A stretch of 64,000 bases of DNA from the NCBI RefSeq assembly GCF_052324685.1, contig NC_135221.1, positions 18,078,664-18,142,663 on the forward strand, given 5' to 3'. The notes below the pieces were generated by a model. The model worked only from the letters and a program-made list of their open reading frames with translations. It ran no database searches and was not told the DNA's origin. Made by a program: the position numbers and the translations under genes. Source of the stretch: Brachyhypopomus gauderio. Lineage: Eukaryota; Chordata; Actinopteri; Gymnotiformes; Hypopomidae. Below are positions 5,768 to 63,450 of this stretch, piece after piece; the stretch's first letter is position 1, and each line of letters begins with the position of its first letter.

Positions 5768-16760
<10,993 letters not shown>

Positions 16761-18034: not shown

Positions 18035-19945
18035 AAAAGTTCCAATCAGGTTTTAGGCCTAATCACAGTACTGAAACAGCATTAGTCAAAGTAACAAATG
18101 ATCTCCTCCTTGCTTCAGATCAAGGCTATGTATCACTGTTAGTGCTTCTTGATCTTAGTGCAGCTTTTGACACAATTGATCATAGGATCTTGCTAAAGCG
18201 GTTAGAATGCTGGGTTGGAATCTCAGGCACAGACCTTTCATGGTTTTACTCTTATTTAACAAATCGCTATCAGTTTGTAGAGCTCAATAATATTCCATCC
18301 AAATGTACAAAAGTTAAATATGGGGTCCCGCAAGGCTCCATTTTAGGACCACTATTATTTACATTATATATGCTACCATTGGACACAAACATAGTGTCAA
18401 TTTTCACTGCTATGCAGATGACACTCAAATTTACATATCAGCCAAACCTGATGACAAACTCAGTTTAGGAAAAATTGAGGCCTGTGTAAGAGATATTAAA
18501 TGCTGGATGTCTCTAAACTTCCTCCAACTTAATGAGGACAAAACAGAAGTTCTCCTCCTGGGCCCTAAGGCCTCAAGACAGAAAATTCCAGATCTAATGC
18601 TTAATCTTGCAGACTACCCCATTACACCTGGCACAGTAGCCAAAAACCTAGGCGTCATACTCGACTCCGACCTATCATTTGATAAATACATAGATAATAC
18701 TACTAGGATAGCTTTTCTACATCTCCACAACGTTGCCAAGTTAAGAAATGCATTATCACAGCATGATGCAGAAAAATTGGTGCACACCATTCTTAGCTCC
18801 AGATTAGACTACTGTAACTCATTACTGTCAGGATGCTCAAATAAGAATCTAAATAAACTTCAAATAGTTCAAAATGCTGCAGCCAGAGTTCTGACCAGAA
18901 CTAGAAAATTTCAGCATATCAGACCAGTCCTATCAGCCCTGCATTGGCTCCCAGTTAAATTCCGTATTGATTTAAAAATTCTTCTATTAACTTATAAAGC
19001 ACTGCATGGGCTTGCTCCTGATTACCTCCAGGAACTTATTTCCTATTATGAACCCCCACGTCCACTAAGATCACAGGGTGCTGGCCTCTTATTAGTTCCA
19101 AAAATTAATAGGGTAACAGCAGGGGGAAGAGCCTTTTCTTGTAAGGCCCCCCAGCTTTGGAACAACCTTCCAAAATACATCCGGGACTCTGACACAGTCT
19201 CAATCTTTAAGTCTAGGTTGAAAACCCACCTATTTGGTTTAGCATTTGATAATTAATATTCCCCCTTAGATAATGGTACAGATCCAGGGGTTCATAGACG
19301 AAGGGTTTTATGGTAGACTGGGGCACTGGTGCTGTCATCCTGTCACTGCTCGTGGTCACTCAAGTTTGTTGACAGTGCAGTGGATGAATGCCATTGTCTC
19401 AGAATGCCCCCAAGTCTATGTTACCTTCTGGTTCTGGCTTTTTTAGCTAGGCTGTAATAATTTAACTTAATGCCGGAGTTGCTGCCACACTCCAGAAATG
19501 TTTATAATTTCACCTGTCCTATATATGTCCTCATACAGGGTTAATTTTCCCTGTTTCATTTCTCCACATGGCTGCCCGCCTGCTTCAGGAATAATGAGAT
19601 GAGGAGAGACAAGCGATCCATCCTGGGCCGGCCACCTCCTAACCGGATGCCTACACCAAGATGGACATTATTACATCTTTTTCCTTTTCTATATTTCCTT
19701 CTGTCTAAATTGTTGTTGTAGTCATGGTGACCGGTGTCGGCCAGAGGAGGATGGGTTCCCCCCCTGAGTCTTGGTTCCTCTCAAGGTTTCTTCCTCATGC
19801 AAAAAAACTAGGGAGTTTTTCCTTGCCACTGTCGCCCTTGGCTTGCTCACTGGGGGCTAGGACTCGGCACTTGTAAAGCTGCTTTGTGACAACTGTTGTA
19901 AAAAGCACTGTATAAATAAATGTTGATTGATTGATTGATATTTTT
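18035..19945 (+). mobile_element. L2-type LINE, 5'-truncated, reverse transcriptase frameshifted
   Basis: The segment begins inside the reverse transcriptase ([18 protein letters not shown]). It continues with [20 protein letters not shown] and [13 protein letters not shown]. The frame breaks just before the catalytic YADD box, which sits in another frame near 18412. A second open stretch at 18507-19256 has SLNFLQLNEDKTEVLL to FKSRLKTHLFGLAF. About 690 bp of 3' UTR follows, ending in TGTATAAATAAATGTTGATT and TGATTGATTGA, the short tandem tail of this family. The endonuclease is absent. The element is dead and lies between the hspa9 and fbxo38 starts. Confidence 0.85.
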
Positions 19946-21742: not shown

Positions 21743-32726
<10,984 letters not shown>

Positions 32727-37469: not shown

Positions 37470-38851
37470 GCTGTAAGTGATTACATTTTCTAAAAGACTT
37501 CTAGTGATCACCAAAGCAACGTAACTATTCTTTTACTTTATTTTAGGAATAAAGTTGTTAATTAAAATATATTTATTGTAAAATAAATGAGCATGTTCTT
37601 ATTGCAGTATATGATACATTACAGCAAGTTTCATAGACATGACAAAAATATATATAAAACATTTTGAAAGGAAAAGATGGGATTCTTTAAACATTGCCAT
37701 ATTAGACAAAACCCACATAAGTCTAAGGGAAATGTATCACCTAAGTTAGAGCACTGAGCTACCAAGTTGTGGAGAACTGGTTGTCTGCCATCTTTACCAT
37801 CTTTAACAGCCTCACTATCCATAGATGTAAACACAGAGTCTTCCCCAAACATTGCCTTTTTAAGGCTTCTGAGGGAAGGCTGGAGGACAACTCATTTTAC
37901 AGCCTGCCACAAAGTGCCCACCTAACAATGACATACACCAACATTCCCTCATTTGTTTTACTATTAAGCTTTCATTTTGTTCCACTTCACTTTGCCCTTC
38001 CTTCACCTCGGGTCTAAATTTAGTCTTTCTAAGCTATATGTCTAGCAGCCCATCTCAGAAGGACGTGGTTGCATATCAAGCTGTGTGAGCCCAGTAAGGG
38101 GGGAGGGATAAAGAGCTAACCCTGATGTTTCACAGAGTGACCATGACACCCCCCCCAACTCTTTAACTGTATCCAGTCTGTGTCTCTTACTCCCACAGTT
38201 CAACATGTCCAGCAACTATATTTGTCTGACAGAAAGCACAGCATGAGGTCAAGGTTTTGTTTCACTTTCCACTGTAATTAAGCTTATCTGATTGCTTCAT
38301 AAATGGTAACAGTTTTTGCTAAATGTAAGGCTAAAACACACGATGGATTATGATGTATGTTAACTCTGTGATATCTGTTGAAGGAGTTAACGTCCGAAAG
38401 AAATAAAAACTTTGTCCTTATCAAATAAATAAACCCATTTTTCTAAGATGTATACATGCATGGCCCTTTGGACTCTGGTGCTGACTATAACCAATGAATA
38501 TGTGATGTCCACTGAGTATTCAAATTATTAGGAACCTTCTCAGTAACCTTTCAGCGAAGACAGACACAGTTCTTCAGGTGACCAAAATATCATGAGAACT
38601 ATTCATGCCACTGGGCTCCACCATCACTGACTCCAGAGAAGCTCCTGTATGTGAGATCCACAGTAAGACAGCAGGTGTGATGCTCGTTTGGGGCACACAC
38701 ATCCTTCTTCACATGTACATGTCCAATGGCTGTAGCCACAGTGGTCCATGTCAGTATGTCCTGAGTACAGTAGGCCTGGCTGCTACCAGTCACTTAAATT
38801 TGCTTAACCCAAATATTATGAACTTTATCCCCTTGGGAAGCTTTTCAAAGT

Positions 38852-38990
38852 CAAAGTCAAATTTATTTATATAGCGCTTTTTACAACACATGTTGTCACA
38901 AAACAGCTTTACAATCGTATGGGTCCAGACCCCTAATGAGCAACCAAAGGCGACAGTGGCAAGAAAAAACTCCCCATGTCCATCCCTTTA
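38852..38990 (-). mobile_element. L2-type LINE 3' tail, minus strand
   Basis: The reverse complement matches the 3' end of the L2 copies at 19800-19945 and 24600-24740, from the AGTTTTTCCTTGCCACTGTC block to TATAAATAAA. It is more diverged. It lies immediately before Tc1-like transposase sequence and may have inserted into that element. Confidence 0.7.
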
Positions 38991-39412
38991 TGACCACAGT
39001 GTACCAATCTTCTGATGGTTACTTCCAGCAGGATATCACGCCATGTCATAAAGCGTGAATCATCTCAGACAGCTCTCGAATGGCCTCCACAGCCACCAGA
39101 TCTCAATCCAATAAAGCACCTTTGGGATGTGGTGGAACGGGAGATTCACATCATGGATGTGCAGCCAACAAATCTGCAGCAACTGCCTGATGCTATCATG
39201 TCAATATGGACCAGACTGAGGAATGTTTCCAGTACCTTGTTGAATCAATGTACTGGGGCAGTCATGGCCTGGTGGTAGGCAACTGGTCTTGTGACCGGAG
39301 GCCATAACTGAGGTGTCCTTGAGCAAGGCACCTAACCCCAACTGCTCCCTGGGTGCCGGGCTAGGGCTGCCCACCGCTCTGGGCACGTGTGCACCACATT
39401 CCTCTAGTAATC

Positions 39413-39455
<43 letters not shown>

Positions 39456-39655
39456 CTAACTGCACAGATGGGTAAAGAGCAGAGGACAAATTTCAATTGT
39501 GGTGAAAAATCACAATTGACAAAATATGGCTAATTTACATTTTTTTTTACATTTATGAATCTATGCCAAGAAGGATTAAGGCAGTTCTAAAGGCAAAAGT
39601 GGGTCCAACCCGGTACTAGCAAGGTGTACCTAATAAAGTGGCCGGTGAGAGTAGG
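38990..39655 (+). mobile_element. Tc1-like DNA transposon 3' part, interrupted by a SINE
   Basis: The frame starting near 39015 codes the end of the DDE domain: PPDLNPIKHLWDVVEREIHI, then NLQQLPDAIMSIWTRLRNV. It stops near 39250. The match resumes at 39546 with GAATCTATGCCAAGAAGGAT. It ends with the terminus GGTGTACCTAATAAAGTGGC at about 39626-39645. The gap is filled by the SINE at 39255-39545. The element is less decayed than its relative at 1969-3030, but its catalytic core is incomplete. Confidence 0.75.
39255..39545 (+). mobile_element. tRNA-derived SINE nested in a Tc1-like element
   Basis: The head GGGGCAGTCATGGCCTGGTG followed by GTCTTGTGACCGGAGG is the tRNA-like part of a common fish SINE. 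The body GAGCAAGGCACCTAACCCCA and CTGCCCACCGCTCTGGGCAC follows. A GT microsatellite lies at about 39417-39453, then the tail GGACAAATTTCAATTGTGG. The box B region looks deleted. Flanks TGAATCAATG and TGAATCTATG look like a target-site duplication with one change. The SINE interrupts the transposon, so it is the younger insertion. Confidence 0.75.
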
Positions 39656-39659
39656 TGGA

Positions 39660-41810
39660 CTGGTCCAACTGGAGGTGTGACAATCATCTGGCTCAGTATA
39701 TATTTTTTCTTCCACAGCCACAAATCCAAAATGGTATTTTCCCACTAAGTCTTAAAAGTCCTGTTCCACTTCATATAACCCAGTCTTTTAGATTTACATT
39801 TTAATATCACTTCTCCTCAACACTAATGAAACTGACTGAATTTGCAATTTAATAGGCTGTTGAATCATTACATCCAGATCATCATAGACAGAATCAATAG
39901 ATCTGACATGCAAAAATGTTAATTTAAATGAAAATCTGTGTTAAAACCATCACAGAGACTAAGAAATAGCCAATAGCTGGTGCTCTCTCACCCACATGCA
40001 GGATGACCCAGAAGGGCATTTGCAGACAAAAATGCATTTATCTTAAAGGGAATTAAAGGAGTTGATTGAATTTGGATTTTGCAGCAACACATCTAAAAGC
40101 ACCAAATGATGTATTATTTTAACCCAGACCTCTTTCTTTCCTTCTTTCTGTCTTTGCTGCTATTTGCCGTGTTCGCCCCGGTACTGATGGCACTGAAAAT
40201 GACCAGCTTGATCAGCACTAGCCACATGCCACCACTGCAATCACAACTCTGTAATCGTGCACCTTACTTTTGTGTTTACAAAAACAATGGTCACATTCAT
40301 CTTTTATCACCAGTATCGTATTCATCTTCCTTATCTCCATGATAGCATTTATGTCCCTAAATGTGAATACTGAATATTTAAGGTATTTTTCTCAAGAATA
40401 ATGATCAACAGTTGTTAATATTCTTTCTGTTATGTTTTTAACTTTCCCCAAACTGAGGAAGAGGGAATGTATTTTGTAACATATCATGTTATGCACATAA
40501 CATGTTAAACACATAATACAATGACTAAAATCAACATAAATATAACTTTTTCACGTTTGTTTTACTGTAAGTGATCAATAATTCTATAATAGTTTCTACA
40601 ATTCTATAATAGTTTAATTGTGGATTTATTGTACATTACAAAGTTTTGTTAAAATTTTCATTTAGTAATATCTTTGGTATATTCTGAACTAGTTGATTAT
40701 ATATATAAATATTTATAATTTAGATACCTGAAACATACCAATGTTGATGAAGGTTCACATGACAACAAGTATATAAATTGTGAGACAAAGATCACAAGGT
40801 AGTTCTCAAGCTTATAACATATTTAACTCATGACTTTTTGTTTAAACAGCGATCTTGGCAACATAAAAGGATATACATTTTTAGAGTAATCCTTTACCTT
40901 TCAGTATGTGATGAACATTCAGTTTTACTATAAAATGTGATGTGTTTATTAGCAGCCACAGTGGTCGCTGACCCTAGTTTTTCTTTTTGTTTATTTCATC
41001 TTACACACCATAGACAACTCATAAAGTACCTGAAACTTACGTGATGATTTGAAGAGACATTGGAACTGTTAAAACACCAGCCTCAGAAATGTACAGCATC
41101 CACAAGATTAGGATTGAATCATGTGAACTTTTATAAGTAAAGTATATGGGATAAGTGGTCAGTAACTTGTCTTTGTATTTAATTATTTATGATACTTTTA
41201 CAGTGATTTTAAAATAAAATCAAATGTGTTGCCCTTTGTTCTGCCATTTAAAATTTCAGCACAACAAAATTCTAAATCAAAATTTTAGTTCTAGGTCTCT
41301 CATCTCCTCATTTTGATGCAACACAGCTCATCCAAAAAGTAGCAGAATCACTATTTTATATTCTAAATTCACACCGTGCACGTTTAATTATAGTTTGAGA
41401 TAAGCATTCATGGCATTTCCAAGATCCATTTGGTCCCTGAAAAAATACCACCTCCTCTATATACATCTTAGCCTGATTTACGTTATTGCTTTCCCATATG
41501 TGGAGGAATCGTTTTTTGAGAAGAAGTTAATTACTCTAAATATCTGTGCCTCTGCGCAGCCCCCCTATTCCCAGGCTCCATCTGTTGTTAATGGTTTCCA
41601 CATGGGCTCACGGTCCCGGCCGCCAGACTCCCGCATGGGCAGAAATGTCCAAATTTAGAAGAAATATGAAAATTGTCAAATGTGCCTTCCTTAGTTGGGA
41701 GGACAGGTCCACACCCCTAGCTTGAGCCCTCCCCCTGTTCAAGCCTTCCTCCCCAGATCCTCTCCTCCTCACTCACTGCGGGTCACAGCCTGGGGTCATG
41801 GGGGCTCACA
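39660..41810. other. AT-rich intergenic DNA
   Basis: No gene recognised. The part at 41550-41660 is GC-richer than its flanks, but it has no recognisable protein family. Confidence 0.45.
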
Positions 41811-41816
41811 GAACAG

Positions 41817-41911
41817 CCAATCACACGAGGTCTGGAGGATTTCCCTTACATGCTTTTCTTACAGGCCAGCCTCTCGCCTCATATAAGGTAAAAGAAAAGT
41901 CTTCTGTCTCC
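41817..41911 (+). promoter_or_regulatory. Candidate promoter (CCAAT, TATA/CArG-like)
   Basis: A CCAAT box in good context (AGCCAATCA, core 41817-41821) lies 60 bp upstream of TCATATAAGG (41879-41888). The latter reads both as a TATA-like element and as a CArG box with one mismatch. A start near 41911 would be expected. About 210 bp further a clean donor follows. The position is 6.5 kb upstream of mir-143 on the same strand, so it could serve the microRNA host transcript. This is inference. Confidence 0.35.
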
Positions 41912-42124
41912 AAGCTATGCGTGCTTCAAAAGAGTGGCTTTCGCTGAGAACCTCCTCCAGACTGTAAGATTCACAGGGTCCAGACCGTGCACGTGCACCT
42001 CAATCTACCCTCCTGACCATCTGCATCCTAGACACAATAACTCCAGGCAGCAGCAAGATCTATCCCAGAGTGTGGCGAGGACAGACCGCCAGACATTTCC
42101 ATTTGCGCTGTGGACAAACCTGAA
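41911..42124 (+). ncRNA. Candidate first exon of mir-143/145 host transcript
   Basis: Bounded upstream by the CCAAT/TATA-like pair and downstream by GAA|GTAAGTG (donor at 42125). It has no conserved coding content. In mammals mir-143/145 is processed from the spliced non-coding RNA CARMN (MIR143HG). By position and strand this could be the fish counterpart, but only promoter and splice motifs support it. Confidence 0.25.
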
Positions 42125-42129
42125 GTAAG

Positions 42130-44190
42130 TGTGTCTCCTCTATCAGTCAATGACTAGTTGACATAGTTTGATATATTTGTTTTAGACTTCTATTTTCAAT
42201 TACCAAAACTGAACGAAAAGTTACAACACATGACGCAGACAGTCTAACACAGTTATGGCTGTGAGGTAGCACATGGACCATATGCCAGTACCAATCCTTT
42301 CTGATTTATCATTTTTGATGTCATGACTGCAGATTGACCTTGCTTATATTTTATAGACTGCATATGAACTGCATATGAAAATGTGAAATGATGTAGTGAA
42401 GTCAAGTACAGACTCGACTTCCTTGGGCAGCACCTCAGAGTGGGAGTCTGACACTTTCCATAACCTTTGACATTTGACTTTTAGCTCTTTTTATCACAGT
42501 ATATAAACTAGGCCATCCACAGTCTTCTTGGACATAAAAGTCCTCTTTCTCATTGTTTTAAGGAGGACAAAGTAACATTTTCTACTGGTTTAGCTCATTC
42601 AGACGCAGGGGAGTTGTTATTAGGCACAGGGGAGTAGACTGGTATAATAGATAATGGTTTTTAAGACAAATTACCTGATGAAATATGTAATACCGTCATA
42701 TGCACGTCTCAGCATTATTGTCCCTTTAAAATGTGGTGGAGATTTAAATAAAAGTATAGAGATGATGAACAGGGAGTTCTCTAATCTATCACGTCCAGTT
42801 CTTTGTTTCTAGAAGGGGATTGAAGGAGAGAGGTCAGCTGGTCTTGTTTGCTATTTATGTGATTGCAAATAGCTTTCAACAGTGCTAGCCCCCAAGTCCC
42901 GCTCCAACCTATTCTATCGCATGTTGCAACCTCTTTAATCTGATCTTTCCATAATCACTTCATAATGTGGAATGGAAGCACACCCTCTAATAATTTCTGG
43001 ATACAATGTCCTTTTGCAGTTAACACAACACAGATGGGGCCAGACATAAAAATGAATATATGAATGAATATTATGAGTTTGCCCTTGTCAGACAGAAATT
43101 TGGAAGGAGCCTTCAATAAATACGTAGTTCCTCACTGTTACGCATTTTTTTTTTTCTTTTTTGTTGTTCCGTGCTTATGAGGGAATGAACATATGTGTGC
43201 CGATTTGACAGATGGACAGATTAGATAGAGGGATGGAGGGAGTCCATGAACTCGGCTCTGTGAGGGAGGGAGAGGAAACGCATTATTTATTTTCCTAGGA
43301 GTCAAAAGTCTGGGATCCATCAGGGCCAAGTGCTTTCACATGACCCAAATGGCCCTGGTTCTCTGGCCTGTCCCCCGTGTCACTCGGTCCCCTTCTCAAG
43401 CCCCCGGGGGACCCCTGGTCTCAGGGTCACTTTCACATGAACAGTAAGGGGGTGGAGCGTTCACAAGGAAATGACCCAAGCCCTTCAACACCAACCCCTG
43501 AAAGACACGCCCAGTGGTTTCACACACACAGGAGCTAGATTTAAACATGGACCCTTGTTGCCTTGGTTTCCAGTTATATGTTGCCAGTTACAGGCTTTTG
43601 GGCTTGGACTTTTTCAAATTCTGAAATGCTTCTGTTGTGAAATTCACTAGTATGAACAGACAACTATGGAGGGCCTTATATGTTTGATATTCACCAGATT
43701 CCTAACAATTTCTTCTGCATCTGCTCTGTGCATGTGTCTGCATCTGTGAATGTGGCTTCTCTTCTAACAAAATGCTGTCACAATGTCACCAGGTGGCTCC
43801 AGTTTCCCTCGTCTGGACATCCGTCTCAAATCCTTCAAACACTTTGTGACTTGGTGTTCGAGATGTTTTACAGGCCACTGGTCTCTCTGCTTAAACCAAT
43901 GAAAGCTAAAGATCTCTTAAATGCGGATCTCAAGGCAGAGATATTTGTGACTAGATTTCATAAAGATACCTTTGTCTGGCTTACGTCTGAAGTACACAGT
44001 AGCTGACTAAGTGAACTGTCTGAGATCAACACGAGAACATGTGGCTACAGTATGCTTTAAAGCATATATTAGACTCTGACAGAGCCGAGGGGGGGGGGGG
44101 GGGGGGGATGTTACTAGCAAGAGCCAACCCCCCCAACCCCCAACCCCCAACCCTCTTCCTGTCGAGATTATTTAAGGAGATGAGGAGAAA
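42130..44190. other. Intergenic DNA with GC-rich block at 43310-43550
   Basis: No protein gene recognised. The block at 43310-43550 is distinctly GC-richer than its surroundings and non-repetitive, so it could be a conserved enhancer. A one-mismatch CArG (CCTTATATGT) is at 43674-43683. A poly-G run of about 19 is at 44089-44107. Confidence 0.35.
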
Positions 44191-44200
44191 TGAAAGGGGA

Positions 44201-44210
44201 CCTTAAAAGG
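44201..44210. promoter_or_regulatory. CArG box (SRF site), perfect consensus
   Basis: CCTTAAAAGG fits CC(A/T)6GG exactly. It lies about 4.2 kb upstream of mir-143. SRF/myocardin drive the mammalian mir-143/145 locus through upstream CArG boxes. Function here is inferred. Confidence 0.4.
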
Positions 44211-45410
44211 CAATGTTTGGGAGTGCAGAAACGCTTGCTCTCCATTATCAGAACAGTGTCTGGGTCTGTGTAAACACTGTTTCTGCCTTGTCTTTGGAGG
44301 TGATCACTTTGGCTCGAGTCTTGACTGTCAGGCTTAAACAGTAATATGACTCTTTCTCCATCACTCTCTGTCCCTCTGACTCACACACAACCCTACGCAA
44401 TAATATACACATTTAAAGATATCTTAAGTGTGTGGCTTTTTTTTTTTTCATTGACCATAAGACTCTGATGTGATAATTTCCTGACCATGTCAAGAGTGCT
44501 TACCTCATACAAGAAGTTCTGTGAAGACCCTTATGTCTTTGGTGGTTATGACACAATCTTTAAGGTGGAGAGGGCCCGAGTGAACACAGCTGGTGTTGAG
44601 AGAGGTGTGCAAAGCTGGTAACACTTAAGATTGTCTACCCATCCGTTTACTTTTTGCCAGTGTATGTGTGGACTGGCCCAGAAGTTTGAATGGAGGTGTG
44701 GCAAACATTAGAACTACTTTAGGCAACCCATCTTACACTACAAAGTTCCCTCTTTGTAATGCATGAAGATCCAGACATTTTTTCCGTTTGAATAATTTTG
44801 AATAGGCTTAAATAATAGATTTAAAAGAATCAAACATTTTTGTTCAGCAATTTGTAATTCCACAAGTATTCTGATCTAAATTCTTCATAGACTGTCTATA
44901 ATGTAGGAAGCAGGATGCTGTGTTTATAATAGAACTGGTTTGGTATCTTCAAATACATAAAGTTTGGAGATTGTTGGGTGTGCATTAGACAAACATTTGT
45001 CTTCAGATTTACAATTAAGACACTAAGGGCTTTCTCAGAGTTCCACATACCAGAGAAGTGATCTTTACAACAAACTGTATGCCGCGCTAGAAGTCCATTG
45101 TGTGGAAGATGAAACGAGGGTCTGACGTTGCTCGGTAATCCGGGTTACCATGGCTGCTACTGCCTTTTCCTCTCCTCTTCCTCACCTTCTCAACGTTTTT
45201 TCGCCTTTTATGTCGGGCTGCAGTAGGCTGTGTCTAGAAAAGGGAATGTATGCAGACGGAGCCATGCGGGCGAGCGGGGGAGGGGGAGGCCACACAGAGC
45301 AGTGACAAACTATCTGCTTCCACAATCACCAGGCCTAAGAGGCCGAATGAGTGTTTATCAAAACCACAGCTTCATTTTCCATTATCCCAAAATAAAATCC
45401 CTTCAGAATT

Positions 45411-45420
45411 CCTTATATGG
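45411..45420. promoter_or_regulatory. CArG box (SRF site), perfect consensus
   Basis: CCTTATATGG is one of the strongest SRF-binding forms of CC(A/T)6GG. It lies about 3 kb upstream of mir-143 and follows a GC-rich block (45115-45340). That makes it the best candidate for the smooth-muscle enhancer of the cluster. Confidence 0.5.
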
Positions 45421-45697
45421 AGTCAGGGAGATTCCAGATGAGGTATTTGAGAAAATCTAAAGCTCTCACTTCTTGGAAAAGGCTCAAAAGGGTTTAGGAA
45501 TTTTTTTGCTGTTTCTTTTTTCCCCCCCTCTCCTCAACGGGTTTCCTTTCTGGGGTAAAGCAAATACTCCACAAATTAAATCGATAGCCGTGTTGCTTTT
45601 TATAGGGCCTATCAATGATGGTTTTTTATGTTAGAATATTACAATATTGACGGGTTCTTCTTAAATGTCGGTATGTTTTTTTTTCTTCCACTCTTAG

Positions 45698-45764
45698 AAT
45701 AAGGTGTGGAATGACAAGGAAATACGGCGGACCAATCAGATGGAGGCTCTACATGCCAGGCAAG
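45698..45764 (+). ncRNA. Candidate internal exon of mir-143/145 host transcript
   Basis: A strong acceptor (long T/C tract ending CTTAG at 45697) and a strong donor (CAAG|GTGAGA at 45765) delimit 67 bp. It lies between the candidate first exon and mir-143 on the same strand. The overlapping 144-codon open frame (45704-46138) runs through the donor and has no recognisable domain, so a non-coding exon is the likelier reading. Confidence 0.3.
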
Positions 45765-46499
45765 GTGAGACCCAGCTGTCAGTCTTATTCAGTGACAAGT
45801 CTTTCAACCCCACTGAGACACATAGAGACACACACTTGCTCCCAGGGAGTAGAAGAGTTTATGACGGAGACAGGCTTTCTCTAACCAGACAGCAGGATGG
45901 TGTGAACATGCTACCGTATGGATCTTCTGTCTGTTCTACTTATGATCTTCATCCCCATTCTTGCTGCATGGAAGAGTTGAAAGATAACTCCCATATTTAC
46001 AGCAAGCAAAAAGAGTTTTTGGTGTTTTTCTTCTTGGAAGTCATGCATGGAAAACAATATACCAGAAAAATACACCCCATAAGGGTGAGAACATTCAAAA
46101 CTAGTTCAATGTCAATATTTGACAGTAGTTGCATGTAGCAATTTTAAACTACTGCTAATGCAGTGAATGTTTTGCATTGTGATGCCTCACCACTCTTCAC
46201 ATGGTTCTCTCATAACCTGGAGGTGTAGGTTTGTAGATGGCTGGTTTGAACCTCTTACACAGCACCCCCACCCCCTGGTTCAGAAACACAGCTGAACTTT
46301 TACTGAACCTAGCAGGGCCAGATATTTAGCTCTCAAGATCATAAGTAAACCATATTAAAAACATAAAATACTAATTCAGAATTCACACAATAACCTGAGT
46401 ATATGATGTTGAGTTGCTTTTTTCATTTTCATGTTTAAATGTGTAACACTGAAGATTTCATTAACAAACACATTATGAAAAAAAAGTCCATTGTATACC

Positions 46500-46530
46500 T
46501 ATTTTCACTGGCCACTTTATAAGATATCTT
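46500..46530. mobile_element. Tc1-like terminus scrap
   Basis: CACTGGCCACTTTATAAG resembles the terminus of the Tc1-like family at 1969 and 39645. Nothing further of the element could be followed. Confidence 0.35.
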
Positions 46531-47419
46531 TAATTTTATAGCAGAATAATTAACAGACTGTAATGTAATAATTGGCATGCACAACTCATCAGGCACACCC
46601 TTGTCAGAAGATAAGGAAATGGTCCTATAATCAAGAGTTCATCAGCATCCACCAGACAGTCTACTTTATTCTACTCTGTTCTAGCTCCAAACATGCCTGA
46701 GCTAAGCAATTAAAGACAATAAATTTTTATAGATGGATAGAGCAAAAAAATGTGGACAAATCAGGTGGCTATGACTAGGACTGGGAGCCCTGCTTTTACA
46801 TATCAGCAACAGTGTAGGGAAGCTTCCTGTATTGCAGATACTATCTATATAACTGTCTATATAACTATCCACTATTATTATCTATCTCTATATACAGCTG
46901 ATTGACTATTCCTGAATTGGTATTTGCATTTGTGGGAAGAGTAGGGTTTAAATACATCATTTGTTCTTCTCATTGAATAAGCAATGACTGTACAGCAATG
47001 TGCTGTACAGAACTGCTGATTCCATTCAGGTCTAGTGTAGGTACCACAATCACTGCTGATAAGGTGTGGAATGAGGACTAAACGTGGTGTGTATCTACTC
47101 AGAGCCAAGCACTGCTTTTAATATAAAGCATACCAGACCATACGAGACACTAAATACAGATGTAGTGCAGTATGCAAATGTTTGGCTGTTGGGTGGTTTG
47201 GTGAGATGCAGCTTGGACGTTTTTGATTGGCTATGGTGCTGCAGGTGAGACTCAGTATCTCACTGTTGAACCTGCGCTCAGATTTTGATAACCTTTCGCA
47301 TACACTTCCCTTCATAATGAAGAGCCTCATCAGTTCATAACGGAACGCAGAGGGAACGTGAGGCAACAAGTGTTTGGACAGGGGAAGGGGCAGTGTGCGG
47401 AAGACAGGGGGAGGCAGTT

Positions 47420-47575
47420 TGAGAAATCAAAGGAAAGGAATGTTTGTAGGGAGCTCGTGGCACAGGGACAGGAAAAACAGTTAAAACACATACAAGCAAG
47501 GGTCAAAACTATTTCCTGTTCACTCACAAGATGTTTACAGGCCCCTCCCCCACCCGCTTTCAAGTCATTCCTTTA
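47420..47575 (+). promoter_or_regulatory. Candidate proximal regulatory block of mir-143/145
   Basis: About 0.8-1.0 kb upstream of mir-143. It contains GGAATGT (47437) and CATTCCT (47566), both TEAD/MCAT-type words. It also has TGTTTACA (FOX type, 47532) and CCCCTCCCCCACCC (KLF/SP type, about 47542-47555). The block is GC-richer than its flanks. Motif matching is by eye only. Confidence 0.3.
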
Positions 47576-48369
47576 GTGCTCTGGGCTTTTGCACAGGAAT
47601 GGCTTTTAGCAAAGAAATACGAGAGTATATTTCATATACAGAAAGCAGAACCCACTTTATAATTCAGCTTAATGTTTTTTTTTTTTCTCAAAAACAACAA
47701 AAATATTGCAAACATATCAAGCAACCTCAGAAATTTGCCTTTTCAAGCTGAATTTGCAAGGTACAAAAGGTTAAGACACTGATTCATACTTTCAGTTTGT
47801 CATAACTATACTGTAATACGTTTTTTAAAAGACTGCCAACAGACTGCAATAGAATACTGCACCCTGAGTCTTAACACGTACGAGAGAGCGAGCACATCAC
47901 ACCTGTTTAAGCATCACCGACATGCCTACCAGTTCCTATTAGAAGAATAGTTTAGAAATTTTTCTACGTTTCTATAGCCCTTAATGGCATAGTGCCATCA
48001 GAGATTTTAGAATGCTTGACAATGTTGCAAATTAATTTAAGCTGTCCAATTGCTGGATTGTTATGTAAATCTAGAATGAGGTACATTGCTTTTATGCATA
48101 TTTAGCTTGAGTGTAGCACTTTACTAGTCCATATGTACGAAAGATGCACAAAAACTTGCACGAAAGTACACAATAACTAAAAATATTAGCTTTTTTCCAG
48201 CAGATAAAGAAGCAAAGGTGCATCTGGATGAATCAGACGAATCTCAGGATCTTGAAGTCCAATCTAATTCAACACATCTGCTCATAGGTCTGCTTCACTA
48301 CACTTCAGGAAACAGCACCTGAGGCAGCGGTAAGGGGAGCAGGTGTGCATGGCCGGTCCAGAAAGGTCT

Positions 48370-48468
48370 TGGGCCCGGTCCTCGGGCCCACGGTGCAGTG
48401 CTGCATCTCTGGTCATTTGGGAGTCTGAGATGAAGCACTGTAGCTCGGGAACGGGGGTGCTGCCACTG
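48370..48468 (+). ncRNA. mir143: microRNA mir-143 precursor
   Basis: The 3' arm at 48426-48446 matches mature miR-143-3p over its 21 nt (seed GAGATGA, then AGCACTGTAGCTC). The 5' arm at 48392-48412 matches the star strand (GGTGCAGTGCTGCATCTC). A loop of 13 nt separates them. The arms pair almost fully, and CCC 48387-48389 pairs with GGG 48447-48449 below the miRNA. In mammals miR-143 works with miR-145 to set the contractile state of vascular smooth muscle. It lies on the plus strand, about 600 bp before mir-145 and convergent with csnk1a1. Confidence 0.97.
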
Positions 48469-48740
48469 CAAACAACAATCGGCAACATTTACATCTAAAC
48501 AGCCATCTTTCATCGTTTATAACGCATTCGGGATTTACGGTTCTGGAACTGTTTCTGCAGCCAAATGTTACAGAGCTAAATATAAATAAAAATTGTTCAG
48601 TTGTTTATTTATTAATGAAAGTAGTTTTGATTTAAGGTGGGATTTTAGCATAGGATCTCCTAAGGTTGCCTGGTTGGCCGTGGTCTCTGGTTTACTTTTA
48701 TGGAGGTCTTGTTGGTTTACTTTTAAGTGGTCTCTTCTGT

Positions 48741-49050
48741 GTAAGACAGCCTCTCTTCCCTGTCCCCGTCTCCTGCGTAAGACAGCCCCTCTTCCCTGTC
48801 CCCGTCTCCTGCGTAAGACAGCCTCTCTTCCCTGTCCCCATCTCCTGTGTAAGACAGCTCTCTTCCCTGTCCCCATCTCCTGTGTAATACAGCATCTTCC
48901 CTGTCCCCGTCTCCTGCGTAAGACAGCCTCTCTTCCCTGTCCCCATCTCCTGTGTAAGACAGCTCTCTTCCCTGTCCCCATCTCCTGTGTAATACAGCAT
49001 CTTCCCTGTCCCCGTCTCCTGCGTAAGACAGCCTCTCTTCCCTGTCCCCG
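48741..49050. repeat. 34-36-bp minisatellite between mir-143 and mir-145, nine units
   Basis: Nine units of the form GTAAGACAGCCTCTCTTCCC then TGTCCCCGTCTCCTGC start at 48741, 48777, 48813, 48849, 48884, 48918, 48954, 48989 and 49023. Units 3-5 (48813-48917) and 6-8 (48918-49022) are the same 105-bp trimer repeated, so there is a higher-order structure. The ninth unit runs without a gap into the pre-mir-145 stem. Long open frames on both strands across the array are artefacts. Confidence 0.97.
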
Positions 49051-49125
49051 GGGTCCAGTTTTCCCAGGAATCCCTTGGACACTCACAAGGGGGATTCCTG
49101 GAAATACTGTTCTTGGGGGTGGGGT
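49041..49125 (+). ncRNA. mir145: microRNA mir-145 precursor
   Basis: The 5' arm at 49053-49075 matches mature miR-145-5p over 23 nt (begins GTCCAGTTTTCCCAGG). The 3' arm at 49092-49113 matches miR-145-3p (begins GGATTCCTGGAAATACTG). A 16-nt loop joins them. The basal stem pairs CCCC at 49046-49049 with GGGG at about 49115-49118. miR-145 promotes smooth-muscle differentiation and represses KLF4/5 in mammals. The left basal strand is part of the ninth unit of the flanking minisatellite, which may bear on Drosha processing. Confidence 0.97.
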
Positions 49126-49129
49126 TAGA

Positions 49130-52100
49130 CGACAAGACAACAACTGACAGACTCAAGTTTAATATGAAGTATTGCATAATTAAAGGTATTGTTGAACCAT
49201 AATTAAATTTGTTGTAGCACAACATGTTCTTGCTTCTGTAAATCCTCATCTCAACCATCCTGCAACACCACTAAAATGTCAACTTTTAATAAATGTGTGA
49301 TTCATACAAATCATGTGTGGAAAAAAATGCATCTTCACCTTGTCTTGAACTTGATGAAAATGGAGTGCGAAGAACGAAATATTGCAGAAAAAAAAAAAAA
49401 GATTTGTTTCATATAACTTTCACTAGAAGGTGCCATTGAGCTGGAGACGTGAACATTTGAGGAAAAACTCCTCACATGCTCCCTTCTGTTTAGCAATTTA
49501 AACACCATATTAATATATTTTACATTAAAAAATATGGTTATTCCAGAATTCCTACACATGAACAGCTCCACAGTAAATTACAGCGGTATGTGTAAGCACA
49601 CTACAGGTTTGACCACTAGAAATATGGTAGAAATGACATACCATCTACATGTACACCACTGTGTAAAAGGGAACAGGAGACTCATTATAGAATGTTACGC
49701 AAAACCTTAGAAGTAACAGAAGTGCATGAAAAACACAGCCAGTACATTAAATATGAAAACAGTGCAGAAATTTAGAAGTGCTGTGCAGTATATCAGTGCA
49801 CACAGTAACACATTGTAAACCACACGTAGTCCAACAGAAGGAACAAAAAAGACTCAGTAGGTATAATTGGAGTATTCTTATGAGATGATATTTGATCACC
49901 ATACTGCTTTAGCAAACAAAGACAGCAGAGAAAGACATTTTGGCAAGTCCCTGATTGGTTGTTACTGCTTGGGAAGTAATATTGTATCCACTTCAGTTTT
50001 GCAGCTGTGCTGCCACTACCATGTGATTAGCAATGCTGTTTTAACACCCAGATATTATCTGTCCTTGTGGTCATGTGACCAGTGATGACGAGTGTAGACG
50101 TAGGACTAGGTGTAATTGTATATAGATAAAATACACCGTTAAATAGGTGTATCTCAGGAAGAGGGCAGTAAAAAGCAGTCACATAGTAGTTGTTTTGAAT
50201 GGATTTGGTAAATCATTGCAAATCTAATGAACTGTAAAATCATTGCTAGTTCTCATGTACATTTCTTATGCTAACTTAAAATAAAGCACTTTTAACTATA
50301 AATGTTGAAGCATGTATATTTTCTTATTCAATCAACTGAGCTAAATTTGAAAAATCTATATTATGGCAACATTTAAAATTCAGAAATGTATTTCAAACTC
50401 ACTTTTCTAAGGAACCATAGCTTATTCCAAAGTTCTCAGTCTGCTTGACCAGGGTCCACCAGATATGGAGCATCAGAAAAACGTGACTTCACTTGGACCT
50501 TTTAGAGTGCCACACAGCATACTGGTCCTTCTCAGCTTACAAAATAGAGACAACGGTTGAATACAGATCTATATTTCTAGTAGCATGTAAATAAAAGTAC
50601 TTGCATCAACTGCTTTCTAATTGACTGGTTTGAATTTATCGTGTCACTAGGAATTTTACAATATTTTAACTATTTGTACACAATCAAACCTTTTTGTAAA
50701 ATTCACATCTCAAGATTCAGACCAAGAAGCTAGTGAGTGTGAGATTGTATTTTCTTTAAAGTGTTTAGATTAGAGATCATGTTACAGCACACTGTGCAAA
50801 GCACCAACGAGAAAACAAACAGGATGGTTTTCTTACAGCCTCTAACGAGAAGTGATTCTGCACATATGAGACTACCTGTCTGACTCAACAGCACCCAACA
50901 TGTCAGGGGAATTCAGGTTCATGTTAATTTACTTGTCATAGCAAACAAACACATTAAATGAAATGAGGATCAGCAGCAGTTGGTATTAGTGTAAAAAATG
51001 GCAGCAAATAATCCTTGATAGACCAGTAATTCTCTTCACTCCAGGATCAGTTTTACAATTTACGCAAATTAGCAGTACACATTCAGTACTCTTTATATTA
51101 AACATAACTGCATATAAATCAGAGCATAATCGTATGAGAGCTTGTACCAACATCTAGACGGGAAAATCTCTTTTCAACACGCTGAAAAACAGCATGGGCT
51201 AAACCCTCAGTGGATCCCTCCCCACCAGTCCAGATTGGCAAAACTGTTCCTGCCTAAGACATGTCAGAACCTATCATAATACAAGGAGAGGCCTATCCAT
51301 ATTAACGTCATGTAAAACGTGAGCAACAAAAACCAGTGACTTTAGACTCAAGGGTGTGCCAAATTACATGGGAGAAGTATAACCCTGGTATGCAATAAAA
51401 TAAGTTATAAAAAATTGTCAAATTTTCTTTAAAACGGTCACTGATCACTTTCATCAATTCTGAAACAAGCTGAAGTCAGGCTGAAACAAAGGAAGCTTGC
51501 GAAACAAAGGGTGTGTGTCAGGATGTTTGAGTAGACTCAGAACTTTCGGTGTTCAACTGGGTGTGCCTAGGTATTTGAAGGTACCTTGAGCTTGTTTGTC
51601 ATAGGAGTTTCCCACTACGGATCAAGGAAAATAGTGGTGTAGAAAACAGCTTCTTGAGAAACAGGTGGTTTCAGTCGCCTAGTCAGGGCAACCTACAGGT
51701 CTGTACAGAATACTCCAGCTCCGCTTACTACCCCCGCCCCCACACAGGTTATGCTGAGCTCAGAAAACCTGATGCAACAACTTAGAAGTCAGTGCAGCAC
51801 CTTAAGTACAAAGATTTCCACAATGGTGGGGGTGCATTTTGTGTGCATATGAAATGAAAGAAAGTCAACATTCCTCATGTATGGTGTTGATGAACATTGA
51901 ACAATTTCCACAACTGACATTTCAAGTCATTTTAATATTTACAAATATATATTTGGGAGAAGTTCAACACCATCACAAGCATTTGTAACTACTCACCAGC
52001 CCCCATATCATCAGTTTGTAGGAACTGTTCGCCTAGATTACAGCAATACCTTTAAGACCACTTCCAAAAATGCCAACACGTCTGTATTATTCAAAACAAA

Positions 52101-56600: not shown

Positions 56601-59600
56601 TTTTAACCTGCATTTTAAACCTGTTCCAAAGACAAGACTATTGTGTTATATTTATCAAATGCTATATGTGCACTTACCTTCAAAACAAAAGCTTTTGCAA
56701 TTTTACTACATGCAACATTTACTGAAATAACCTGGAATTCAATAATATTCACATTTTGAAGATGACTACAAAATTGTTTGTACATGTAGGATTAGAAAAA
56801 TATCACAATGTGGCTTAATCAATTGAGTCATGAACCAGGAAGCCAGAGCACGTTGGGATTAATACAATATGCTCTTTAAAATATTAGAACTTTGACAAGA
56901 TTTGATTACAACCCCTGGCCCTGTTTAAATAAAATAAATAGTCAAATTACTAACTACATCAAATTATTCAGCATTAATTCCTGTTTTTGGACTTTTTATT
57001 TAGAACAGATACTGGTGATTTTTTTGTATTTTTTAGGCACTACTAAATATCCCCAAACAAAGACAAAATGGTATAGTTATGTTTGTAGCACTAGACCGAT
57101 AGTTTCTTGGGCCCACAGACAGGTGACTACTAAATACCACCATGTGGTGCTGACCAAGCAGGTTACACAAAAGGATTAAAGGCAGTGACGCCATGTCAAC
57201 TGCAAACAGTATTTATAGCTCAGCCACATTTCCAGCACTTGCGTTCTCCTATCACTCAAGAGGAACTGCAAAAGAGGAAAGAGGAAATCTTTGAGGGATC
57301 CTGCTCTACAGGACATTTTGAAACCGTCAAAAGAAGGACCTATCCTTGCATGACCAGATGATGTTAAACTGATCACAGATAAAACAAAGAAAATATCTTA
57401 AGGGTACAAAAATCTATAGTATATAGATAATGTGTATTATATACACACGTTCAATCATACTTTGACAGAATTTGGAAAAAAGACTGATTAAGCACTATAA
57501 CCTAATTAGCAGAACCAATCCAATTGATAATGGATGTCCAGACAAATGACGATGTGTGTCTAAAAACCATCCTACAGCACTACAATTAAAAAGCAGTGTA
57601 GTTTATAGCACAAGATGTATTTAACATAGAAACCAGTTATGACCAGTTATGACGTACCAGTTACCTAGTAGTGGAACACATCTTTAAAACATTCTAGATA
57701 TCATATTAAACATGTATGGTTATCCAAGCAGAAATCTCATTATACGTTGATGGAATGAGTCACTCTGTAAAACTTGCTTAGACTGTGTCCATAGCTTGCA
57801 TTTACAGTTTTTCCAAACAGGAATGAACAATTAACTATGACTCATGCCAAGTTAATCATCAACGGCAAGACAATATAACAGATTTATAGAGCCCCCCCCA
57901 ATCACGCACACAAAAATCACATCATTCTAAAATCCAAATACAATCTTAAATATAACAAGTAGCACTGTTAGTTACAAAACCACTCCCACTTAATCATCAT
58001 AGGGATGGTACTGAAGACCACTGGAAAAAAGTGTCAGATCTAAGGAACAGTGATTGGGGAAAAATAATGTCAAAATCATATGTCCTATTTGGAAAGGGGT
58101 TAAATCAGAGAGAGAGAGAAAGAAAGGATGGTTATGATCTAACATTCAGAAAAAGGTTATGAAGCCACCCTTTAATCCCAGAGAGGAATAGACACTTTGA
58201 CAAAGTTAGTAGTCAAATTTCCCAAGGACGTCTTTGCATCTGCAAGACAGACCAATTGAAATTTCTCTACTTTTTTTTTGGGTGTCTTCTTGAACTATTA
58301 ATTATTTGGCCATATTATAAAATTTTTGGGTGGGCTAAGATTCTTCCAAATTAATTATTGAAGTTCATCTCTGTTTTCACCTCTTTTTACAAAAAATGAA
58401 AGTAATTGGTGTCTTATTTTGCACTGAAAACGTCACTTGGCTGTTTGCTACTAACCTTTCATGTTACTCTTGGGTTTGTCAGTTTGCTTGCCTGTGGGGG
58501 TTTGTGCCTGTTGCCCCTGTCCCCCTGAGGATGCCGCCTGTTGTGCTGCTTTCTGCTTCAGCATGGTCCAATCAAAAGTGTAGTCATACTGATGGTTCAG
58601 AGTTCTAGGGGAGATTCAGCGTTCGTGAGCAGTGGGGGGAAGGGACACACCACATGATCATATACTAAAAGGTACGAACAAACATGATCGAATAACGAGC
58701 ACCTTAACACAAAGATTAAGAAGAAATTCCTTTGGGAAAAACACTACATGAAATTACATGTTGAAATAACACTGTAATAAAGTTACCAATTTATCTTGAC
58801 AATTTTTGATTGAAGTGAAGACTGACAAGTACCTGAAAAGAATCCGAAACAACTGACGCAGATACATGTAGTCAGGGGCTTCTTCAAAACGCAACCCACG
58901 ACAGTAATTCAGGTACATGGCAAACTCAGCTGGGAAACCCTACAAAAAGAAGAGACTTCTAATGCTCTGATGCCTCGATGTCTCAACCAATAAACAAGTG
59001 ACCACATTTACCAAAGACTTGAAGTATCTCTACAGGAAAAAGAACAAAATAGTTTTTCCTTTTGTGAGGAAAAAAAAAGAACTAAAAATATATAATCAAA
59101 TTACTATACAGGTGAAACTGTAGCATTTTCCAAATGCACTCGTCTCAAATCTCAAATGCATACCTTACACAACACTTCAACAGGAGTTGACATCTTTTTC
59201 TCACTGATCTTCTCATATTTCTGTTTCTTTGTGGCTGCCTATGGAGCAAACGTGGACAGTTAAGTTGCTTTACAGTGCGTTACTGACAGGCCGATAACTG
59301 CAGAGAGCAGCTTTATAAATGCCAGATCTTACACATAACTTTCTTTAAAGTTTGCAAAGTTTGTCACCCACCATCTTTTCTGTAACATTTAGTATAAAGA
59401 AAAGACTATTACTAGCGACCTAGGCATTTGGCTACAATTTAAACACTGGACACTGACGACTTAAGACACCCAACACGATTTTTTTATCATAAAACCTCAA
59501 GGAAGATCAAAGCATGGCATTTGTAAAAGTCACTGCAACTTGTGTACACAAGCAGATGTGACATGTGCATGTTATCATATGCAGATTGCAGCAGGCTGTA

Positions 59601-60502
59601 GTGGGAGACACTGGGTGGCTCAGCTCCTAATGACAAATGCCCACTCCACAGTGCAACAGTGGTCTTCATAACTGCTGGGTTCAATGAGCAATTGTGGCAC
59701 GCGTGACATACTTGTCTATATAACAGAAGATGCTGATGAGCTGATGACTTTGCGCATCCATGGTATACAGCGAAAGGTATTTATACTAGGCCAAGACAGC
59801 ATTGGGCTGCTGATGAATGTTAAGACACCCGTGCATACACCATCACAGGAGACCAAATAGACAGATGTGAAGCCCTGGTGTCCTTTATGAACACTGCCAT
59901 GACATGTGGCAGCTGTCATCAGAGGCAAAGGTTGAACAACAATTCTCAATCCAAATGTTTTTTTTTTTCTTTCATATCCTAAATTCAGTTTGAATCCTAG
60001 GTGGACTGAAAGCTCTCAAGAACCTTGCCAGCTTACCTTTAACCCTTGCCAGGGGAGGCTGGTTCTGTTGAAATACATCAGCACATAGCCTAGTGATTCC
60101 ATGTCATCTCGACGACTGTTGAAAAAGTTTTTAAAAGTTTAAGTATACTTAAAGTTTAAGAATTCTAAAAAATGTTATAGTATTTCTTTATGAAGTATCC
60201 TTCTATATCAGGAAGCTTTTAGGGACTGCTAAGGAGGCATGGCACACAATTAAAGAATATCATTGGAAGATGCAACACAAAACATCACAAAAACTGCACC
60301 TAAATGTAACTGCAGTGCCGGAAACTGAGTAGAAGTAAAAGGACACTAAAAGGTGCTCGTACCTCTGCTCTATGCCCAGATGTGCATTGATGCTGGCATA
60401 GCGAGCTGTGCCCGTGAGGTTCTTGTCTTCTCTGTAAGGGATGTGCTGCCGCGTTCTGTTGTCTCTGTATTTCTTGGCCAAACCAAAGTCAATGAGGAAC
60501 AA
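53695..60502 (-). CDS. csnk1a1: Casein kinase 1 alpha, 3' half of gene (six exons)
   Basis: Ser/Thr kinase of the CK1 family. It primes beta-catenin in the APC/Axin destruction complex and acts in Hedgehog, p53 and circadian pathways. Exons from 5' to 3': 60363-60502, 60037-60115, 59164-59238, 58833-58939, 58456-58604, 53695-53702. They join in frame to 185 residues plus stop, the C-terminal part of a protein of about 337. The first exon opens at [15 protein letters not shown] (DFG metal-binding motif) and includes [13 protein letters not shown], the CK1-specific stretch replacing APE. The tail [12 protein letters not shown] is as in vertebrate CK1 alpha. The last exon codes only the end of G, then F and stop, after a 4.75-kb intron. 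The exons with the ATP loop and HRD motif lie beyond 64000. Confidence 0.97.
53703..58455 (-). other. csnk1a1 last intron
   Basis: A 4.75-kb AT-rich intron. A 25-A run lies at 56457-56481. A scrap of fish RTE-type LINE tail is at 55560-55650. I saw no further exon that could be supported. Confidence 0.6.
55560..55650 (+). mobile_element. RTE-type LINE tail scrap
   Basis: CGAAGGACAGCTGGGATTGG followed by CTCCAGCCACCCGC and GAACAGGCGTGGTAGAAAAT matches the 3' end of a common fish RTE-type element. It ends near ATGCATGGA. Confidence 0.6.
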
Positions 60503-63450
60503 CTGCAAAGATAAGAAACAACACACTGGGTGTGTCACACAATGACCTCTAGTTACATTTGAAGTTCATTATTGTCTATGAAATGAGTGCAGGTTTGCAT
60601 GATATGAAGAAAACATGCAATGTGTAATAAAGGTCAGCACAAGGAGGAGTTTTGATAAATGAACAAATATTTAAGCGTGCATATTACTTATACACTTCCT
60701 GTCTTTCTGCTTTGACAGGCATACTGCTGACATGCCCACAGAATAAACTGAATAAAGAAAAAACAGTAAGTTGTTCTTGTCCCCTTTAAAATATTTTCTT
60801 ATAAAAAATGTCATACACTGGTAAATTTTGAGATTTGGAGCCCATTTTGCTTCTATAAAATTAAGCACAACATTGGCTGGTGTCAATTTCTGACAACTTG
60901 GCACGTGACACTTCCTGGTTTAGCTTCGTTGGGAACATTGGGGCACTCCCCAGGGATGAAGCATGTAGCATATAATTAAACTATAAAACTAATATAAATA
61001 TAATAAAGTGCCAATTCATTCTGTATTTTATGATTTGTCAAATTTTACTTTCCTTTTTCTTTTAGTGACATGAGTAGAAAATATTAAAATAATGCATCTC
61101 AGCAAAAACAAAAATGAAGGTAGCCAAAATTTTTTTATGTTGGTTACGTTTAACTATTTTATGGGATTGCATGGCACACACCACAGGGACAAAGTACATA
61201 TGTGCAAACACTTCTTTTCAGTTGAGGGCCATAAATTAGGTAATTTTTATAATTTTTTAATTGGAGATGTTCTCTTATAGTTAATTCTAATAGAAAACAT
61301 GAAATATTTAGAACACATCTTTCGAGGTCGCTTGATCAAAATAAGTTTCAAGTTTTGAGCAATAAATAACCACTTCGGTAGTATTTTCATGTGCATTTTA
61401 TGCATATGTATATTCAGAAATGTTTTACAGAAGGGCCTGTTCATATTAAATCGTAGCATAAATTATACAACATTTTATGACTAAAAATGTATTCTATGAT
61501 TTTAATGTTAAATGAATCAAGACTATACACAAATTGGTGTAGATTTAACCAGATAATGGCTCATTTGCACATTCAAACATACAATTTCAGAAAACTTAAT
61601 ACAAAAACTGTCTAAACAACCAGGAAACTAAAAGGTGAAATCTATTACATAAAATTTTTCCTTACTCACGTGTCATCTTAATTAAACAAAAGTGCACAAA
61701 TGAGAAGAGAACGCCAACGCAACATTCAGTGACCAACAAAACTAAAAAGACTTAGAATAGAACAATCTGAGGACAGCTAACGGCTAGATGGAGCTTAGTA
61801 TGATTGACCAAGAATGGTGTGACATCTGCATAGTTAAAAAAAACAAATACATAGTAAATAAAAAATAAATACAAAAATAGGTACGTGATGCATTTTCATG
61901 CAGTATGAACATGTGTAATACATACAACTCATCATGATTGTCTTTGAGAAAGACATGTGTAACAAGCCAAATGGGTTATAAATATGCTAACATAAGCTAA
62001 GCCCTCCTGGACACATGCGATTGACTAAGTTTGGCGAAAACAAAGCAGTCACGGATTTTGTTAGTTGATATTTTGATTGCAATGAATAACCTAGATCAGT
62101 TAGTGTACATTCATGCTCAAACATTTTAGTAGCATCACAGAACACCGTTGAAGAATGCCAGTCCTAGGACGATCAATTAAGACACCTGTACACTATAGAA
62201 AATAGCTGAATCTCCAAATCTCTTACAAGAGTCCTATGTCATAGAAAACAAAATAAAGCTACTAATATTTTACTATGCTATTTAAAAATGCTATATAAAA
62301 GTTATGGATTACACCCACTGCTAGCAGGTGTATAAACTCAAGCACACTCCGTTATACAACACAATACAAGAGCTAGTACTGAAGAACACATCTAGCACAA
62401 CTAGGGTTATAAAATGCCAGTGGGTTTGTGAAGTTTTGACCTTTTAGATCTGCTCTGGTCAACTGCAAGCACCATTACTGTAAAACAGAAGAAGTGTGTG
62501 GGAGCAACCACAGGTCATGGATCAAATGGTAGACCAAGAGTGGGGTTGCTCGATCCTGAAGTGATCCTCTGATACAGGATGCCTGACTAAAATGCTCTTT
62601 TCACTGAACAGGCACAAATTCCCACAGATGTAATCCAAATACTTTTGGAAAGCCTTCTTAGAAGAGTGGAAGTGTGGAGCACAAGTGTTTGCATCAAAAC
62701 ATTTCATCTCTTAGAAATGCCGTTCATGTACTTCCCACTTCCTACTTTGTAACAAAATGGTGACCAACAAATATTTTCAATTGCTCAGCAGTGTGCACAC
62801 ATGAGGATACAAAATGTTTTAGACATCAGGCCATTTTCCCTTTTTAAACAGCACCTGCTTGAAAAAAAAGAAAAAGAAAAAAAGAAGATGTAGTTCTTGC
62901 TCAAGAGGCATTGCTTAGACAAAATGAAAGCTTTTGATAATGTACTGTAGCAGACACTCACGAGCTGTATTAAGGTTACCTTACAATTACAGACCAATGG
63001 CATTTTGCTTTAAACACTCAATTTGCGTCACAAAAATACGGACAAGTAAAATAACTGACTCATTTTGCCTTTTTTGACTTGCACAAATCACCTGGGTAAC
63101 CCAATCAGAATAGAATTACCATTTTAAGTAAAAAAGCCAGGGTATCTGCACATTTTATAATCTCAAATTCAATGACTTAAGACCTTTTTAATACCGCTCA
63201 CAAGAAAAAAATAATACTATTAATGTGGTAAAAAATGACAAACTAGGTAAGTGTACAAAACGTTTTACTGTACGGAAATAAATAATACCGTCCACCTTAG
63301 GGAACAAAAAAATAATTTAAAATAATTATCAAATAAATATAAAAGTGCACTGTTAAGATAACTCAGCAAAACAGCCTTTAAGCCTAAAAACAACTAAAAT
63401 ATCCAAGTTTCAATTTCAACTTGTTCTGCACCGTTCAGCACCATACTGGA
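60503..63450 (-). other. csnk1a1 intron upstream of the DFG exon
   Basis: AT-rich sequence. The alternative long-insert (L) exon known from vertebrate CK1 alpha was looked for and not found. No other feature recognised. Confidence 0.5.

Follow-up and report, generated by a model that had tools for sequence, protein, structure and literature searches.

Does the DNA beside csnk1a1 in Brachyhypopomus gauderio hold a genuine mir-143/mir-145 cluster, and what lies between its two hairpins? We studied this in the window, the whole 64,000-base stretch of DNA analysed here. The cluster is intact, sits at a single locus and is ordinary, of a kind already known. It is unusual only in a young repeat array, which fills much of the spacer and reaches the foot of the mir-145 hairpin.

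Identity and fold of the two hairpins

The first-pass annotation had proposed an intact cluster at 48370–49125, with readable mature and star strands and both hairpins on the same strand about 600 bp apart. The Rfam search bore this out: both precursors scored well above their cut-offs (Table 1) over the full length of the models (1–84 of 84 for mir-143, 1–86 of 86 for mir-145). The limits agreed with those proposed to within 7 bases, and the actual gap between the matches was 578 bases. No other family reached the gathering level in the window. The mir-143 hairpin folded at −42.6 kcal/mol (z = −4.14) and the mir-145 hairpin at −48.7 kcal/mol (z = −3.70), and each was more stable than all 200 of its dinucleotide shuffles. 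The E-values of the Rfam matches and the shuffling results exclude a chance origin. The hairpins and their geometry are observed directly. In a scan for weaker matches between 40000 and 56000, four families matched 44077–44158 far below cut-off (25.0–27.1 bits, both strands), which we attributed to chance in a hairpin of G-runs and C-runs. In the same region, mir-143 and mir-145 also matched the minus strand below cut-off; these matches are the reverse complements of the hairpins.

Table 1. Positions of the features in the window
Feature	Position	Strand	Evidence or remark
mir-143 precursor hairpin	48377–48460	+	Rfam RF00683, 93.2 bits, cut-off 60, E = 5.9e-22
miR-143-5p	48392–48413	+	exact match to vertebrate sequence
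miR-143-3p	48426–48446	+	exact match to vertebrate sequence
CNNC motif, mir-143	48463–48466	+	begins 17 nt past the miR-143-3p end; others begin at 14 and 20
mir-145 precursor hairpin	49039–49125	+	Rfam RF00675, 89.8 bits, cut-off 50, E = 2.6e-19
miR-145-5p	49053–49075	+	exact match to vertebrate sequence
miR-145-3p	49092–49113	+	exact match to vertebrate sequence
CNNC motif, mir-145	49130–49133	+	begins 17 nt past the miR-145-3p end
Minisatellite in the spacer	48733–49050	+	nine units, 34–36 bp; last unit extends into the mir-145 basal stem
Candidate SRF (CArG) site CCTTATATGG	45411–45420		perfect CCW6GG, 3.0 kb upstream of mir-143
Candidate SRF (CArG) site CCTTAAAAGG	44201–44210		perfect CCW6GG, 4.2 kb upstream of mir-143
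csnk1a1 coding exons (partial)	58490–60421	−	PDB match and csnk1a1 peptide fragments

The mature arms were located with the vertebrate miR-143 and miR-145 sequences as queries. Each of the four queries occurred exactly once on the plus strand of the window and nowhere on the minus strand. In both duplexes, the 5'-terminal base of 5p is paired to the base third from the end of 3p, which leaves a 2-nt 3' overhang on the Drosha side, as cleavage by Drosha should. Each precursor (RF00683 and RF00675) combines the gathering score of its family with its mature arms and this overhang. The pair also has the arrangement of the cluster: mir-143 comes first, the two share one strand at short spacing, and csnk1a1 lies nearby.

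A CNNC motif 16–18 nt downstream is an aid to Drosha, and both precursors carry one in this range. Another reported processing aid is a UG placed at the basal junction on the 5' side (PMC8269442). The 20 bases preceding miR-143-5p contain no TG, and the 20 bases examined before miR-145-5p contain a single one, at −10. Judged from the bases present, the basal UG motif would be neutral for working precursors or would count against them. Folded in the context 48300–49300, the three mir-143 pairs tested had predicted pairing probabilities of 0.85–1.00 and the six mir-145 basal pairs 0.77–0.90.

Neighbouring genes and candidate regulatory sites

The first-pass annotation had placed the cluster between fbxo38 and csnk1a1, and the csnk1a1 side of this placement stood. 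The best PDB match of 60341–60511 was casein kinase I isoform alpha (E = 9.1e-27), and 10 of 22 csnk1a1 peptide fragments used as queries were located within the interval given in Table 1. The nearest of these coding fragments lies about 9.4 kb downstream of mir-145. The cluster is on the plus strand and csnk1a1 on the minus strand; therefore, the two converge, as human mir-143/145 and CSNK1A1 presumably do. The fbxo38 side is putative: plus-strand exons at about 21.6–32.4 kb, upstream of the cluster, are candidate fbxo38 exons. Pfam found no family among six candidate fbxo38 frames, and nothing informative came from PDB searches with two of these frames. One candidate exon resembled a pentatricopeptide repeat protein in the PDB (E = 2e-06), a match set aside as uninformative.

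Two further features were seen on the upstream side. A mitochondrial Hsp70 (hspa9) exon occupies 9071–9433 on the minus strand (PDB Stress-70 protein, mitochondrial, E = 3.7e-42). A plus-strand, reverse-transcriptase-like frame at 18318–19253, upstream of fbxo38, is probably part of a LINE (Pfam RVT_1 at 26.9 bits, short of the 29.6 cut-off). Nine frames from the inter-gene DNA (36285–57176), two of them crossing the spacer array, and one csnk1a1 exon frame gave no Pfam match at cut-off; the exon frame had one sub-threshold match, to DUF3885.

PCYOX1L, IL17B and CSNK1A1 are listed as neighbours of the human cluster (PMC2903500), so that CSNK1A1 is a neighbour in both species. The claimed agreement with human 5q32 accordingly held for the proximity of csnk1a1 and failed for the upstream neighbour: human has IL17B at this place and the fish has the putative fbxo38, with none of the eight IL17-family matches in the genome falling on the contig of the window. 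We did not count IL17B as defining, because the zebrafish locus is likewise partly rearranged: its upstream genes are described as retained, with some shuffling, in blocks of two to four, and its downstream order as less well preserved (PMC8306979).

The two CArG sites upstream of mir-143 are the only perfect CCW6GG sites in 38001–49500. The whole window holds five, and therefore the pair is not significant by count. SRF and myocardin are reported to act via a CArG box on the promoter of the cluster, 4.2 kb of which is highly conserved (PMC6395947). We regard the two sites as regulatory candidates, that is, as a lead.

The minisatellite between the hairpins

More than half of the spacer consists of a minisatellite, which was absent from the first-pass annotation. 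Its units start at 48741, 48777, 48813, 48849, 48884, 48918, 48954, 48989 and 49023; the first eight measure 36, 36, 36, 35, 34, 36, 35 and 34 bp, and the ninth ends at the hairpin. Units 3–5 and 6–8 form two higher-order blocks of 105 bp, which match with 0 mismatches in 105. Over its 27 bases, the last unit repeats the opening of units 3 and 6 exactly. Its final ten bases (49040–49049) form the 5' side of the mir-145 basal stem and pair with 49115–49124 in the predicted fold; these are also their most probable partners when flanking sequence is included. Genome-wide, the 27-base core matched five times at up to three mismatches, always inside the array, in an ungapped search that misses four of the nine units in the array itself and would likewise miss gapped relatives elsewhere; the reversed control pattern gave no match. 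Because the core was found only here and the 105-bp blocks are identical, the array looks local and its last expansion looks young. It is likely to be polymorphic in length. No title or abstract opening in the literature searched, which lacks most subscription papers, mentions a repeat in the mir-143/mir-145 spacer.

On each strand, the array is spanned by long open frames, because the 36-bp unit and the 105-bp block are multiples of three. A protein reading of the spacer was rejected, as the two such frames scanned had no Pfam match. The window contains other minisatellites, one among the fbxo38 exons (30869–31041, 43-bp unit, 4.0 copies) and one upstream of fbxo38 (15406–15599, 33-bp unit, 5.9 copies).

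The position of the array raises the question of whether its length could tune miR-145 output, either through competition for the 3' basal flank or through splicing of the primary transcript. The identical 105-bp blocks, which point to recent expansion, and the last unit, which serves as an arm of the basal stem, are consistent with such an element. A precedent exists in the human MIR137 VNTR (PMC6299112, PMC8269442, PMC6692358). This 15-nt repeat lies near the 5' end of pre-miR-137, and more repeats are reported to go with less miR-137 in cell lines (PMC6299112). Its length is also linked to splice forms without the miRNA (PMC6692358). The two cases are alike in having a tandem array directly 5' of the pre-miRNA and inside the presumed primary transcript. 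They differ in the unit, 15 nt in MIR137 and 34–36 bp here, and the present array is known from one genome's sequence alone, so no length variation has been seen.

The folding predictions were mixed. Tested mir-145 basal pairs had predicted probabilities of 0.81–0.96 in the hairpin alone and dropped to 0.57–0.64 with the array in the shorter context 48700–49200. Across four contexts, the predicted basal-stem probability was 0.62–0.85 with nine units vs 0.89–0.90 with one, a change that was not strictly stepwise. The effect on the stem is nevertheless small. In the predicted folds, pairing tends to be between units (CUGUC with GACAG). Moreover, in five contexts, 23, 23, 16, 20 and 23 of 25 dinucleotide-shuffled arrays gave a stem probability no higher than that of the real array. 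The real array therefore disturbs the stem, on the whole, less than a random sequence of like composition would. For the same reason, a special decoy role is not supported, in which the CCCTGTCCCC arm, through its eight copies further upstream, would compete strongly with the native arm for the G-rich 3' flank: in most trials, the stem became less probable with a shuffled array than with the real one.

As for the splicing route, GTAAGA or GTAATA occurs in every unit, but these GTAA donors scored low with a rounded donor matrix, the best reaching 4.09 vs 8.29 for the highest-scoring GT site of 48000–50000. A functional splice donor in each unit was rejected on these weak scores. Taken together, the models allow that repeat length may possibly tune miR-145, and we consider a length-variable tuning element improbable. 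The fuller version, a length-polymorphic VNTR of nine units derived from the mir-145 basal arm, whose copy number would set miR-145 relative to miR-143, appears very improbable.

Copy number and comparison with known clusters

A whole-genome Rfam search of the fish's own assembly (796,539,105 bases in 840 contigs) gave one above-cut-off locus per family, at the cluster in the window; it scored the best 54 of 59,736 and the best 55 of 153,918 first-look candidates, so that weak copies could be missed. There is hardly any chance that the working cluster lies elsewhere and that these hairpins represent a relic without function or a surplus copy, given the one above-cut-off locus per family among the 54 and 55 best candidates, the exact match of all four mature arms and the two intact folds.

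The locus is almost certainly the orthologous vertebrate mir-143/mir-145 cluster, with both hairpins presumably derived from one plus-strand non-coding primary transcript and a young local minisatellite between them. By analogy with mammals and zebrafish, whose study underlies our view of co-transcription, processing, expression and targets, a single such transcript would carry the mir-143 and mir-145 hairpins. Drosha/DGCR8 would cleave each of them at the basal junction, and Dicer would then take off the loop. Smooth-muscle and cardiac targets, among others, would then be repressed by miR-143-3p and miR-145-5p. The minisatellite would have grown locally and recently between the hairpins; its last unit supplies the basal stem of mir-145 with its 5' arm.

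The clusters of zebrafish (chr14, lncRNA BX088707.3) and human (chromosome 5, CARMN/MIR143HG) share with this one the same hairpins, the mature sequences, the clustering and the single copy. In zebrafish, miR-145 is described as a single-copy gene on the plus strand of chr14, clustered with miR-143 in a lncRNA, and its mature sequences as remarkably conserved among vertebrates (PMC8306979). The spacer is about 0.58 kb here and about 1.3 kb in human (PMC2903500). A minisatellite that makes up more than half of it sets this cluster apart from both the human and the zebrafish one.

The annotation gives two microRNAs of smooth muscle and heart their place in this genome. The array that ends in the mir-145 basal stem would offer a test of whether repeat length beside a Drosha substrate may uncouple two microRNAs of the same transcript.
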